A stretch of 64,000 nucleotides of DNA from Variovorax sp. V93 (GTDB taxonomy: Bacteria; Pseudomonadota; Gammaproteobacteria; Burkholderiales; Burkholderiaceae_C), in assembly GCF_041154485.1 (NCBI RefSeq), contig NZ_AP028669.1:5249001-5313000 (forward strand), written 5' to 3'. Position numbers and translations under genes: made by a program. Within the stretch, counting starts at the first letter, position 1; each line of letters opens with the position of its first letter. Below, one piece after another: positions 49,203-53,428 of the stretch. Below the pieces are notes generated by a model. It saw only the letters and a list, made by a program, of their open reading frames with translations. It was not told the origin of the DNA and did no database searches.

Positions 49203-50333
49203 ATGCATCGAAAAGCAGCGGCGGTGTGTGCCATCGCCGTCGCCGTCCTTCTCGCGGGCTGCGCGAGCGGCACGCGCAGCGGCGGCGGCGCACTGGGCGG
49301 CCGCGACGGCCCGGGCAGCAACATCCCGTCCGACCTGGACCGCGTGCCCGATGCCGAGCCCCGCATCGAAGCCATCCGCAACAGCGGCGGCACCAGCAAG
49401 CCCTACACGGTGCTGGGCCGGGCCTACCAGCCGATCACCGACGACCGGCCGTTCCGCGAATCGGGCATCGCCTCGTGGTACGGCCGCAAGTTCCACAGCG
49501 CCTCGACCGCGAGCGGCGAGCCCTACGACATGTACGCCATGACGGCCGCACACAAGACGCTGCCGCTGCCCAGCTACGTGCGGGTGCGCAACCCGGCCAA
49601 CGGGCGCGAGGTGATCGTGCGGGTGAACGACCGCGGGCCCTTCGTCGACGGCCGCATCATCGACCTGAGCTACACCGCGGCGCTCAAGCTCGACCTGCTG
49701 CGCGGCGTGGCGCCGGTGGAAATCGAGCGCATCACGAACGAGGACATCCGCACGGGCGCATGGCGGCGCGATTCGGGCACGGCGTATGCCTCGGCCTCGC
49801 AGCCGCCGCGCGCCGAGCCTGCACCGGTGGCCGTGCCCTCGGCCTGGGTGGCGCCGGTGGCGATGAACGCTGCAGCGCCGGCCGGGGCGATGCCGGTCGC
49901 GCCGCAAACGCCCATGGCATCCACGGCGCCCGCCGACCGGATCGCGCAGGCCGCGCCGGCGCCCGAGCCGGAGGCCGCATCGCCCCGCCAGCCGATCATG
50001 GTCACCGACCTCCCGCCGCTGGCGCCGCCCACGGCACCGCCGCCCGCGCCCGCAGCTGCCTCGCAGGGCGCGGCGCCCTCCTCGCCTTCAGCCGCAGCCG
50101 CGGGTTTCTGGGTGCAGCTCGGTGCCTTCCGCGAGCGCGATGGCGCCGAGAGCCTGCGGAGCCAGGCCGCGCGCGGCCTGCCCACCCTGGCGCCGCAGCT
50201 GCGCGTGTTCAGCGAAGCCGGCACGCACCGCCTGCAGGCCGGGCCCTTTACCTCGCGCAGCGAAGCCGGCGAGGCCGTCACGCAGCTGCGCGAGAGCCTG
50301 CGCATCGCGCCGATGGTGGTCGAGCGACGCTGA
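49203..50333 (+). CDS. rlpA: RlpA-like septal ring lytic transglycosylase with SPOR domain
   Basis: The 376-residue lipoprotein has signal MHRKAAAVCAIAVAVLLAGC (lipobox LAGC) and a double-psi-beta-barrel RlpA domain at about 95-180 (GIASWYGRKFHSASTASGE, RVNDRGPFVDGRIIDLS). A Pro/Ala-rich linker (about 200-300) is followed by a C-terminal SPOR domain (FWVQLGAFRERDGAESL) that binds denuded septal glycan. ATG 49203 has no clear ribosome site, because the repeat occupies the upstream DNA. Confidence 0.93.
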   Translation: MHRKAAAVCAIAVAVLLAGCASGTRSGGGALGGRDGPGSNIPSDLDRVPDAEPRIEAIRNSGGTSKPYTVLGRAYQPITDDRPFRESGIASWYGRKFHSASTASGEPYDMYAMTAAHKTLPLPSYVRVRNPANGREVIVRVNDRGPFVDGRIIDLSYTAALKLDLLRGVAPVEIERITNEDIRTGAWRRDSGTAYASASQPPRAEPAPVAVPSAWVAPVAMNAAAPAGAMPVAPQTPMASTAPADRIAQAAPAPEPEAASPRQPIMVTDLPPLAPPTAPPPAPAAASQGAAPSSPSAAAAGFWVQLGAFRERDGAESLRSQAARGLPTLAPQLRVFSEAGTHRLQAGPFTSRSEAGEAVTQLRESLRIAPMVVERR

Positions 50334-50342
50334 TTCGAGGCC

Positions 50343-50810
50343 TCAGGGCATCGCCTTGGCCGCCACCGGCAGGCGCATGCCCACGCCCATGCGGTTCCAC
50401 GCGTTGATCTGCGCGATGGCGATCGAGAGTTCGACGATCTCGAGTTCGCTGAAATGCGCCTGGAGCGCTTCGAATTCGGCATCGCGGGCTTGGTGATGAT
50501 CGGGCAGGCGCGTCAGCGTCTCGGCCCAGTCGAGCGCCGCGCGCTCGCGCTCGCTGAAGAAGCTCACTTCGCGCCAGGTGGACAGGCTGTTGATGCGCTG
50601 CCAGTCCTCGCCCTGCTGGCGCAGGTCGCGCACGTGCATGTCGAGGCAGTAGGCGCAGCCGTTGATCTGCGAGACGCGGGCAAAGACGAGGTCGATCAGC
50701 ACCTTGCCGAGCGTGCTCGACTCGATGGTGCCGTTGACGGCGATCATGGCCTGGAAGGCCTTGGGCGCGATCTTGAACCAGGTCAGGCGGGGGGCGATGG
50801 GGTTGCTCAT
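50343..50810 (-). CDS. Carboxymuconolactone decarboxylase/AhpD-like protein, ECF41 partner
   Basis: The 155-residue protein has the AhpD-like redox motif CAYCLDMH (Cys52, Cys55, His59) and the AhpD core helix IVELSIAIAQINAWNR. It is the kind of carboxymuconolactone-decarboxylase-like protein always found next to ECF41 sigma factors. It is preceded by an exact ECF41-type promoter at 50862-50888, so it is very likely the direct target of the sigma factor upstream. A likely role is peroxide or thiol redox chemistry in the cytosol. Confidence 0.94.
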   Translation of the reverse strand: MSNPIAPRLTWFKIAPKAFQAMIAVNGTIESSTLGKVLIDLVFARVSQINGCAYCLDMHVRDLRQQGEDWQRINSLSTWREVSFFSERERAALDWAETLTRLPDHHQARDAEFEALQAHFSELEIVELSIAIAQINAWNRMGVGMRLPVAAKAMP

Positions 50811-50861
50811 GGTGCGTGCTCCAGGTGGTTGAGATGAAGAATCTGCTTGCTACCCACTGAA

Positions 50862-50888
50862 GACGGGCCGGCCATCGGCCCTGTGACA
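50862..50888 (-). promoter_or_regulatory. ECF41-type promoter of the AhpD-like gene
   Basis: Read on the minus strand: TGTCACA (50888-50882), a 16-base spacer, then CGTC (50865-50862). This equals the published ECF41 consensus (TGTCACA-N16-CGTC) with no mismatch. The start codon at 50810 is 52 bases downstream of the -10. The same element with the same spacing precedes the sigma factor gene. Confidence 0.9.
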
Positions 50889-50901
50889 CGCCGTCCGAAA
50901 A

Positions 50902-51783
50902 TTATTTCGACGAATAGAGCTGCGCGATGCGCGCGAGCTTGTCGGGGTTGCGCTGCACGCGGACGCGCACGATGCGCTCGTCCTCGATCTCGAAGGTCTG
51001 GGCCGATTCGAGCTGCCCGTCGATGAAACGCAAGAGTCCGGGCTCGCCGTTGATCTCCACCAGTTCCATGCGCACCGCGGTGCCCATGCGGCGCCAAAGC
51101 GCGAAGTACAGCTGCGCGAGCCGCTGGCTGCCGCGCAGGACCTTGCTGAAGCTCTGCACCTTGCCGCCGCCGTCGCCGATGAGTTCCACGTCTTCCGCCA
51201 TCAGCGCCTTCAGCTCCTGCAGGCTGCCGCGCGCTGCCGCATCGGCAAAGGCGCGCAGCAGGCGCTGGTGGGTTTCGCGCGGCACCTGGAAGCGCGGGCG
51301 CGCCTCCTGCACCTGGGCCTTGGCGCGGTGCACCAGCTGCCGGCAGGCGGCTTCGCTCTTGCCGAGCGTGCGGGCCACCTCGTCGTAGTCGGCATCGAAC
51401 ACCTCGCGCAGCAGGAAGGCCGCGCGCGCCTCGGGCGCCAGGCGCTCGAGCACGGCCAGGAAGGCGACGGAAATGTTGTCGGCGCGTTCGAGCAGCTGCT
51501 CCGGGGTGTCCGGCCCGCCGGTCAGCGTGGGCTCGGGCATCCAGGCACCGACGTAGTGCTCGCGCTGGACCTTCGCGGCGCGCAGCCGGTCGATCGAAAG
51601 GCGCGTGACGACGGTGACCAGCCAGGCTTCGGCACTGCCCAGGTCGGCCTTGTCGGCCTCATGCCAGCGCAGCCAGGCGTCCTGCACCACCTCTTCGGCT
51701 TCCGCGACGGAGCCGAGCATGCGGTAGGCGATGCCCTGCAGGCGGCGGCGGTGGCTGTTGAAGGCGAGGGTGGGATCGTCCAT
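50902..51783 (-). CDS. ECF41-family RNA polymerase sigma factor (SigJ-like)
   Basis: The 293-residue protein has sigma region 2 (LAFNSHRRRLQGIAYRMLGS, then EAEEVVQDAWLRW) and region 4 (LLREVFDADYDEVARTLGKS), followed by a SnoaL-like C-terminal domain. The ECF41 marks are present: WMPEP (usually WLPEP), DGGGK and NPDKL. In this group the C-terminal domain regulates activity, and no anti-sigma factor is needed. ATG 51783 was chosen although a GTG six bases earlier is in frame: the -10 of its own promoter ends nine bases upstream (51792), so a transcript would begin at or near this ATG. The stop is followed by the AhpD-like gene. Confidence 0.95.
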   Translation of the reverse strand: MDDPTLAFNSHRRRLQGIAYRMLGSVAEAEEVVQDAWLRWHEADKADLGSAEAWLVTVVTRLSIDRLRAAKVQREHYVGAWMPEPTLTGGPDTPEQLLERADNISVAFLAVLERLAPEARAAFLLREVFDADYDEVARTLGKSEAACRQLVHRAKAQVQEARPRFQVPRETHQRLLRAFADAAARGSLQELKALMAEDVELIGDGGGKVQSFSKVLRGSQRLAQLYFALWRRMGTAVRMELVEINGEPGLLRFIDGQLESAQTFEIEDERIVRVRVQRNPDKLARIAQLYSSK

Positions 51784-51791
51784 GCTCACAA

Positions 51792-51818
51792 GACGGGCGA
51801 CCCACCGGGTTTGTGACA
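51792..51818 (-). promoter_or_regulatory. ECF41-type promoter of the sigma factor gene (autoregulation)
   Basis: Minus-strand TGTCACA (51818-51812), 16 bases, CGTC (51795-51792): a second exact match to the ECF41 consensus. Only eight bases separate the -10 from ATG 51783, so the message may be leaderless or nearly so. It ends just before the stop of the ferritin-like gene (51823). Confidence 0.88.
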
Positions 51819-51822
51819 GGTG

Positions 51823-52731
51823 CTATGCGCCCTGGTACTCGGGCCTGGGGCCGAGCGAGGCGGCCAGTTCCTTGCGGTAGCGGTTGAGTTCCTGCACGGT
51901 CTTGAAGCTGCGGTTCATCAGCAGGCTCAGGTTGTGCAGGATGCGCTCGCCGACCTTGCTTTCCCAGACCGCGTCGAACTTGATCTGCTTGTCCAGCCAG
52001 TGCTCGAGCCAGTCGGGGTCGGGCATGCGGCTCTGGATGGTGTCGTTGGGGAACAGCGCCTTGTTGACGTGCAGGTTGGTCGGGTGCAGCGCCTGGGCCG
52101 TGCGCCTCGCGCTGGCCATCAGCACGCCCACCTTGGTGAACGCGGCGCGCGCCTCGTCGCCGAACTTTTCCATGGCGCGCTTCATGTAGCGCAGGTAGGC
52201 GCCGCCGTGGCGGGCCTCGTCCTGGCTCAGCGTGGTGTAGATGTGCTTGATGACCGGCTCGGTGTGCCACTGGGCGGCGCGGCGGTACCAGTGGTTGAGG
52301 CGGATTTCGCCGCAGAAGTGCAGCATCAGGGTTTCGAGCGGGGGGGCCGGGTCGAAGTCGAAGCGCACCTCGTGCAGTTCCTGCTCGGTGGGCGCATGCT
52401 GGGGACTGAAACGCTTCAGGTACTCCATGAGCACCAGCGAATGCTTCTGCTCCTCGAAGAACCAGATCGACATGAAAGCGGAAAAGTCGCTATCGTGGCG
52501 GTTGTCGCGCAGGAACATCTCGGTGGCCGGCAGTGCCGCCCACTCGGTGATGGCGTTCATCTTGATGGTCTGCGCCTGCTCTTCGGACAGCAGCGAAGCA
52601 TCGAACGACTGCCAGGGAATGTCCTTGTCCATGTCCCAGCGGACAGATTCGAGTTGTCTGAAGAGTTCCGGATAAAGCATCAAAGTCTTTCTAAGGCCGT
52701 CGATTTTAGTCGGCTCGTTTGGCGCACCCAT
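51823..52731 (-). CDS. Ferritin-like di-iron protein (acyl-ACP desaturase/AurF-like fold)
   Basis: The 302-residue helical protein has carboxylate/His motifs of a di-iron site: AITEWAALPATE, FEEQKHSL, FCGEIRLNHW and SQDEARHGG. This pattern (E...EExxH...E...DExxH-like) matches ferritin-like oxygenases or desaturases. Substrate unknown. An ATG at 52680 (MLYPELFRQLE) would also fit the family and is the shorter alternative. It is oriented like the sigma factor but has its own upstream region, and its stop lies five bases before the sigma promoter. Function is inferred from fold motifs only. Confidence 0.8.
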   Translation of the reverse strand: MGAPNEPTKIDGLRKTLMLYPELFRQLESVRWDMDKDIPWQSFDASLLSEEQAQTIKMNAITEWAALPATEMFLRDNRHDSDFSAFMSIWFFEEQKHSLVLMEYLKRFSPQHAPTEQELHEVRFDFDPAPPLETLMLHFCGEIRLNHWYRRAAQWHTEPVIKHIYTTLSQDEARHGGAYLRYMKRAMEKFGDEARAAFTKVGVLMASARRTAQALHPTNLHVNKALFPNDTIQSRMPDPDWLEHWLDKQIKFDAVWESKVGERILHNLSLLMNRSFKTVQELNRYRKELAASLGPRPEYQGA

Positions 52732-52810
52732 GACAGACGCGCGATGATGTGTGGATAAGCGCGGTCTTATGGCGCGAAATGCACACTTTTTTGTCTTCAG
52801 GAGCCCTCTT

Positions 52811-53428
52811 ATGCGAATCCCCGCCGTCCTGGCCGCATGCCTCCTTGCCGCTGGCACGGCGGTCGCCCAGGCCCCTTCTCCCAGCCCGTCTCCAACTCCC
52901 GCTGCTGCCCCATCCGCCGCGGCCGACGGTGCCGCGGCCGCCGCCTGCCCGCCCATCCTGCAACACACCTTTCCGCGGCTGCAGGACGAAAAACCCCAAT
53001 CGCTGTGCCAGTACGCGGGCAAGGTGGTGCTGGTGGTGAACACCGCGAGCTTCTGCGGCTTTACCCCGCAATACAAGGGGCTGGAGGCGCTGGACAGCAG
53101 ATACCGCTCGCGCGGGCTGGTGGTGCTGGGCTTCCCGTCCAACGATTTCGCGCAGGAATCGGGTTCGAACAAGGAAATTGCCGATTTCTGCGAAAGCACC
53201 TTCGGCGTGAAGTTTCCGATGTTCGCGAAGTCGTCGGTGCGCGGCGCCAATGCCAACCCGCTGTTCAAGCAGCTCGCGCTGGCCTCGGGCACCACGCCGA
53301 AGTGGAATTTCTACAAGTACCTGATCGGGCGGGACGGCAAGGTGGTGCAGGCCTGGTCCAGCATGACGGCGCCCGACGAGAGCGCCTTCGTCAAGGTCAT
53401 CGAGAGCCAGCTCGCGGCCGGGGGCTGA
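52811..53428 (+). CDS. Exported glutathione peroxidase family protein
   Basis: The 205-residue protein has signal MRIPAVLAACLLAAGTAVA, a Pro/Ser/Ala-rich linker (about 21-45), then a GPx fold with Cys82 in NTASFCGFTPQYKGLE (Cys instead of Sec), a Gln/Asn region (FPSNDFAQESG) and WNFYKYLI. It likely reduces peroxides in the periplasm. ATG 52811 gives a good signal; earlier starts do not. It lies divergent from the ferritin-like gene. Confidence 0.93.
   Translation: MRIPAVLAACLLAAGTAVAQAPSPSPSPTPAAAPSAAADGAAAAACPPILQHTFPRLQDEKPQSLCQYAGKVVLVVNTASFCGFTPQYKGLEALDSRYRSRGLVVLGFPSNDFAQESGSNKEIADFCESTFGVKFPMFAKSSVRGANANPLFKQLALASGTTPKWNFYKYLIGRDGKVVQAWSSMTAPDESAFVKVIESQLAAGG

Follow-up and report, generated by a model that had tools for sequence, protein, structure and literature searches.

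We identify in the window, the whole 64-kb stretch of Variovorax DNA analysed here, a gene for an ECF41 sigma factor that quite likely activates its own expression through a promoter merged with its start codon, yielding a leaderless mRNA. In the proposed circuit, the holoenzyme formed with this sigma factor would initiate at the A of ATG 51783 and produce a leaderless mRNA without a Shine-Dalgarno sequence. It would also initiate 43 nt ahead of the neighbouring AhpD-like gene, and on a second replicon ahead of another AhpD-like gene, to produce mRNAs led by a Shine-Dalgarno sequence. The feedback arm and the output arm would share one promoter sequence and use two modes of translation start, with the sigma factor presumably activated when its C-terminal domain senses a signal. 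Promoter recognition by the window sigma factor, the exact +1 and leaderless translation are readings we infer from the DNA itself, and autoregulation is deduced from motif identity. Promoter–start codon fusion in many genera would provide a simple, testable sigma circuit in which feedback and output differ in translation start, and ECF41 factors are widespread.

The minus strand carries, in order, a ferritin-like gene (51823..52680, start approximate; PF03405), an exact TGTCACA-N16-CGTC motif (51792..51818), the sigma factor gene (50902..51783, 293 aa), a second exact motif copy (50862..50888) and the AhpD-like gene (50343..50810). The AhpD-like gene encodes a 155-aa protein of the carboxymuconolactone decarboxylase family (PF02627, E 4.2e-18; TIGR00778, 49 bits against a cut-off of 27.8) with a CxxC motif of the form CAYC. 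This pair is flanked by the co-directional ferritin-like gene, whose stop codon at 51823-51825 lies 4 nt upstream of the sigma promoter, and by a gene with SPOR and lytic transglycolase domains on the other strand. The ferritin-like protein scores 30.4 against a cut-off of 22.7 for PF03405, and its matches to PF11583 (AurF) and TIGR04535 (encapsulin-associated ferritin) fall below theirs. No Rfam family reached its gathering threshold in 50200-53000, and the predicted fold of the sigma message over its first 60 nt was unremarkable (z 0.51).

The sigma protein scores 360 bits against TIGR02957 (cut-off 323.25), a family we take to be ECF41, and it contains both DGGGK and NPDKL, presumably ECF41 group motifs. 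The SigJ model NF007214 gives 321.8 bits against a cut-off of 271, Pfam regions 2 and 4 of ECF sigma factors are both found, and the closest solved structure by sequence is Mycobacterium tuberculosis SigJ (PDB 5xe7, E 6.9e-48, residues 8-251), which comes from another phylum. Between regions 2 and 4 the linker carries WMPEP, one conservative change from WLPEP, the ECF41 motif described at that position (PMC3426412). A C-terminal extension spans approximately residues 160-293 and matches SnoaL_2 at E 4.8e-4 and 21.1 bits, below the Pfam cut-off of 27; SigJ itself is named as an ECF41 factor with a SnoaL-like domain (PMC8999054). Profiling of the flanking genes found no anti-sigma gene beside the sigma gene. 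With the family profile over its cut-off, the WMPEP, DGGGK and NPDKL motifs all in the protein, the C-terminal extension, the CxxC partner gene and the promoter, the gene is by profile and motif an ECF41/SigJ-type factor with a CxxC AhpD-like neighbour downstream; the ECF41 identity and the AhpD-like partner were part of the original prediction.

Both promoters proposed at the outset proved exact, with no mismatch in either copy. They are the only two matches to TGTCACA-N(14-18)-CGTC in the window, both with N16 and both on the minus strand, and dinucleotide shuffles gave a mean of 0.12 matches, with two matches in 0 of 100 shuffles. At the sigma promoter, CGTC ends at 51792 and is followed by TTGTGAGC and then ATG 51783, so that 8 nt separate the −10 element from the start codon, the number originally counted; the second motif ends 51 nt ahead of the AhpD-like ATG 50810. 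Across the whole genome (6.74 Mb, two contigs) the motif with N15-17 occurs at 4 sites, compared with 3 for a reversed control. The genome-wide count alone proves nothing; site placement does, since the three N16 sites lie ahead of the sigma gene and two AhpD-like genes, at distances of 8, 51 and 43 nt, respectively. Single-mismatch sites showed no excess in this genome (21 in total, 3 exact and 18 with one mismatch, compared with 37 for the control), and no further targets can therefore be named. Among 86 Variovorax genomes with ECF41 we counted 355 exact sites (N15-17) and 162 control sites, compared with 20 and 27 in the 15 Variovorax genomes without ECF41. The base after CGTC is T in all 131 distinct exact sites before sigma, AhpD-like and NmrA-like genes, and with one mismatch allowed it is C in 7 of 66 near-spaced sigma genes.

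To place this spacing among relatives, we profile-searched 229 loci, a set that includes a locus with the same promoter as the window (L010) and not the window's own. A sigma gene was found in 168 loci, and 151 genes were left after removal of identical promoter–start stretches and of rows without a usable start. Counting a motif with at most one mismatch, and taking as sigma start the ATG nearest the start expected from the profile (L275, with ATGs at 8 and 32 nt, was counted as 32), the motif lies 7-10 nt before the ATG in 66 of these 151 non-redundant genes and 19-129 nt before it in 15, and is absent in 70. The near group is sharply confined, with 1 gene at 7 nt, 33 at 8 nt, 31 at 9 nt, 1 at 10 nt and none at 11-18 nt. 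AhpD-like genes behave differently: 73 of 96 distinct genes have the motif, which lies 32-112 nt upstream in 72 of the 73, and the start of the one remaining gene, at 8 nt, is uncertain.

Near spacing recurs across genera. In a set of 77 loci, 73 of them usable (L078, L080, L085 and L086 were dropped for want of a usable start), 32 have the motif 8-10 nt upstream of the sigma ATG. They comprise 27 of the 30 usable loci from Variovorax plus a single locus each from Caenimonas, Polaromonas, Aquincola, Rhizobacter and Pelomonas, and they differ in their spacers and upstream DNA. Two sets of relatives consist of the best 30 loci each, so their counts lean towards close relatives: near spacing was found in 20 of the 29 family-level loci other than the window, under 11 genus codes, and in 5 of 26 new loci of the other set, these 5 being all the listed loci of another family of the class (f14), four of them with TGTCACG. 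Of 17 further new loci, 2 were near-spaced. On a tree of 132 sigma proteins the trait requires 11 changes; it is spread over Comamonadaceae- and Sphaerotilaceae-type lineages and f14, and occurs in no row of that tree from Burkholderia, Paraburkholderia, Caballeronia or Alcaligenaceae. The close promoter–ATG geometry of the sigma gene is, judged from these sequences, a lineage trait. A class-wide pattern search for an ATG 5-12 nt after the motif gave hits in 73 of 369 genomes, including the site of the f14 genome G265; the hits were scattered and chance-like, and we set them aside.

A mapped ECF41 promoter suggests where transcription would begin. In Sinorhizobium meliloti the SMb20029-rpoE9 transcript is reported to start 9 nt downstream of the same motif (PMC3616915), and the ninth base after the motif in the window would place the start of the sigma message at 51783, the A of the ATG, and that of the AhpD-like message at G 50853, leaving a 43-nt leader that contains GGAG and pairs with the anti-Shine-Dalgarno at −5.6 kcal/mol. 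Read instead as nine intervening bases, the published distance would shift the sigma +1 downstream by one base, into the start codon. Among 65 distinct AhpD-like promoters, 61 have a purine as their ninth base, usually a G with T after it, and starts mapped in the ECF41 promoters of Bacillus licheniformis and Rhodobacter sphaeroides are described as G (PMC3426412); we favour the ninth-base reading for both reasons. The predicted leader is 0 nt for the window sigma gene and 0-1 nt in most relatives, with a leader of one base and none equally probable at spacing 9.

These same bases frame the strongest alternative, which is compatible with a leaderless mRNA: in place of selection for leaderless translation, the fixed spacing may reflect an ECF41 preference for a purine followed by T at +1, with a start codon captured there by chance and then inherited. 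We regard this as a tentative reading. The AhpD-like promoters favour G or A followed by T at the same places, 10 of the 65 AhpD-like promoters have an ATG exactly 8 nt past CGTC compared with 0.63 per other place, and the geometry is clade-structured. Against it, sigma genes with spacing 9 have a pyrimidine at the usual +1 in 29 of 31 cases, compared with 54 of 76 ahead of the other sigma ATGs (p 0.011), as though the start had shifted together with the AUG. Such an ATG is also present in 5 of 12 NmrA-like promoters, and ATGs at this position open short or N-terminally extended frames ahead of the main start (L036, L038, L040, L041, L076, L131, L139, L173, L225, L242 and others); 5′-terminal AUGs have been described in Escherichia coli (PMC4965119).

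The sequence upstream of the start codon argues further for initiation without a leader. Counting as strong a Shine-Dalgarno pairing of −4 kcal/mol or better, we compared spacing classes in a reduced set of 132 rows (51 near, 81 others) that remained after a further similarity cut and from which the near row L040 is absent. None of the 51 near-spaced genes shows strong pairing compared with 46 of the 81 others (p 5e-13), and mean pairing is −0.63 kcal/mol for near-spaced genes, −3.16 for genes with a distant promoter (6 of 14 strong) and −4.48 for genes with no motif (40 of 67 strong). In the 77-locus set strong pairing occurs in 1 of 32 near genes (L040, spacing 10, −8.8 kcal/mol) compared with 22 of the remaining 41, and in another set in 1 of 59 near genes; AhpD-like genes with the motif pair strongly in 57 of 73. 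Near spacing and Shine-Dalgarno loss are not independent, because the −10 element occupies the place of the Shine-Dalgarno sequence, and both follow clades: independent pairs on the tree gave a constant direction for strong pairing, which was not significant (7 pairs, median p 0.25).

A less probable alternative, which we consider unlikely, is that most sigma protein comes from a longer read-through message of the ferritin-like gene, the promoter being real and the leaderless message minor. The tandem arrangement of the two genes favours it, near relatives L010-L012 share this arrangement by eye, and a scan of 50250-52900 found no terminator-like site. The DNA upstream of ATG 51783 provides no good Shine-Dalgarno sequence, and 13 of 31 near loci have, immediately ahead of the promoter, a T-run that would cut read-through. 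These T-runs follow a GC-rich inverted repeat, by eye; this is not so in the window, where translation from a read-through message is possible given that no terminator was found and that upstream pairing, at −3.2 kcal/mol, is weak.

Translation from GTG 51789, six bases upstream of the ATG, on a transcript starting further upstream is very improbable: the codon is in frame and 9 of the 33 spacing-8 genes have an in-frame start codon between the −10 element and the ATG, but this GTG lies just 2 nt past CGTC, too early for any plausible +1 of the sigma promoter, as had been noted from the outset, and 23 of the 31 spacing-9 genes instead have an in-frame stop codon right after CGTC, which leaves them no start ahead of the ATG, wherever +1 exactly falls. 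With +1 at 51783, no upstream sequence would be transcribed from the sigma promoter, and gene callers could pick the untranscribed GTG as the sigma start. The leaderless start of the original prediction has gained support from recurrence in multiple genera, two-peaked spacing, the missing Shine-Dalgarno sequence, the in-frame stops and the Sinorhizobium start-site offset, and we continue to infer it on these grounds.

Each element of the proposed circuit has a precedent. The ECF41 systems of B. licheniformis and R. sphaeroides, in which activity of ECF41-type promoters was shown, share with the window the motif, the CxxC carboxymuconolactone decarboxylase-family neighbour, the C-terminal extension and the lack of an anti-sigma gene; they differ in that the partner gene or operon is described as the only detected target and in mapped leaders of 22 and 23 nt (PMC3426412). 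The same ECF41 survey lists 53 loci with the >ECF> >COE> arrangement, of which 14 have a sigma promoter and 24 a partner promoter, and the word "leaderless" is absent from its text (PMC3426412). S. meliloti SMb20029-rpoE9 resembles the window in sigma group, motif and start-site distance (PMC3616915) but has the partner gene first and the sigma gene second, likely cotranscribed (PMC3616915, PMC6180224). Leaderless messages are established in Proteobacteria, with 171 leaderless starts given for S. meliloti (PMC3616915) and a leader under 5 nt given for 4.67% of primary starts in the related bacterium Cupriavidus metallidurans (PMC7563307), where such messages are thus not rare. The window sigma message would resemble these in its predicted 5′-terminal AUG and in having no Shine-Dalgarno sequence; unlike other leaderless mRNAs, it comes from a presumably autoregulated sigma gene that retains this geometry from genus to genus and whose presumed targets are leadered. 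A literature search by title and start of abstract, with most subscription journals outside its reach, returned no leaderless ECF41 gene, and the new part is the recurrent fusion of an ECF41 promoter with the sigma start codon alongside leadered presumed targets.

The circuit does not appear to be self-contained, and this part of the original prediction is not supported. A third exact N16 site lies on the second replicon (contig 2, 1143657-1143631), 43 nt ahead of a second AhpD-like gene with AAGGAG, and the window genome encodes one ECF41 factor over the TIGR02957 cut-off (one match at E 1e-40; six others score 74 bits or less); relatives likewise carry several unlinked sites. The genome search for other TGTCACA-N16-CGTC sites, suggested at the outset, yielded this third site; the fourth, an N17 site that falls inside a reading frame LysR-like by eye, we dropped as a promoter. 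Among 13 hand-picked genomes, a copy or close orthologue of the second AhpD-like gene (91-100% identity) is present in 5, the window genome included, and in none of the 4 without ECF41; the exact motif precedes it in 5 of 5, with four different spacers. The window sigma factor probably acts on at least one additional gene, located on another replicon, a sequence-based assignment that would speak against the published ECF41 rule of a single target gene or operon. One target was reported for S. meliloti RpoE9 (PMC6180224), and a review names an Azospirillum ECF41 factor, citing a paper whose title refers to motility and lateral flagella (PMC8999054), a title from which the single-target rule is probably already not absolute.

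We listed 98 exact N16 sites in 30 other Variovorax genomes and classed all of them by sequence motifs, with 1-2 members of most classes confirmed by Pfam. The sites precede the sigma gene (20), the neighbouring or a similar AhpD-like gene (22), the second AhpD-like gene (5), a third AhpD-like gene (6, four of them beside an ECF41 paralogue), an NmrA/NAD-binding gene (11), an HlyD-like adaptor (5), a winged-helix/ATPase regulator (6), pstS (9) and others (14). Nine of the NmrA-like sites are unlinked in genomes with ECF41, one lies beside the sigma gene and one is in a genome lacking ECF41; in a check of six genomes picked by hand, the NmrA-like gene had no match in the window genome at E 1e-40. 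Unlinked exact promoters of this kind are candidate ECF41 regulon members beyond the neighbouring gene. A more ambitious proposal, which we advance only speculatively, is that, in ECF41 systems of the Comamonadaceae type, selection keeps the promoter initiator and the sigma start codon as one element, with a feedback arm that is exclusively leaderless, targets led by a Shine-Dalgarno sequence and a dispersed regulon that includes AhpD-like, NmrA-like and efflux genes. Were this true, feedback gain would depend on the state of the ribosome, for example under stress, and would place a translational gate within a sigma circuit.

The pstS site, found in 9 of the 30 genomes including one without ECF41, was rejected as a target, with no T after CGTC in its 4 distinct forms. 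The site resembles what we take to be the Pho box consensus, and this highly conserved TGTCACA-N16-CGTC, which probably belongs to a Pho box, can mislead regulon searches that use the motif alone. The same stretch occurs with one mismatch in the window genome (C1:2447591-2447617, L204). In other genomes the partner genes vary: in G009 (L139) the sigma gene is followed directly by the NmrA-like gene in place of the AhpD-like partner, the third AhpD-like gene lies beside a second ECF41-like factor in G003, G008, G033 and G034, and the exact motif precedes an NmrA-like gene in G017 (L151), an 86% complete genome in which no ECF41 was found. Finally, at 19 distinct sites of the 77-locus set (L043, L053, L071, L074 and 15 others, from Burkholderia, Paraburkholderia, Advenella and other genera) the exact motif precedes a gene that looks LysR-type by sequence motif and lies approximately 1-2 kb downstream of the sigma start, and the sigma gene at these loci is itself without the motif.
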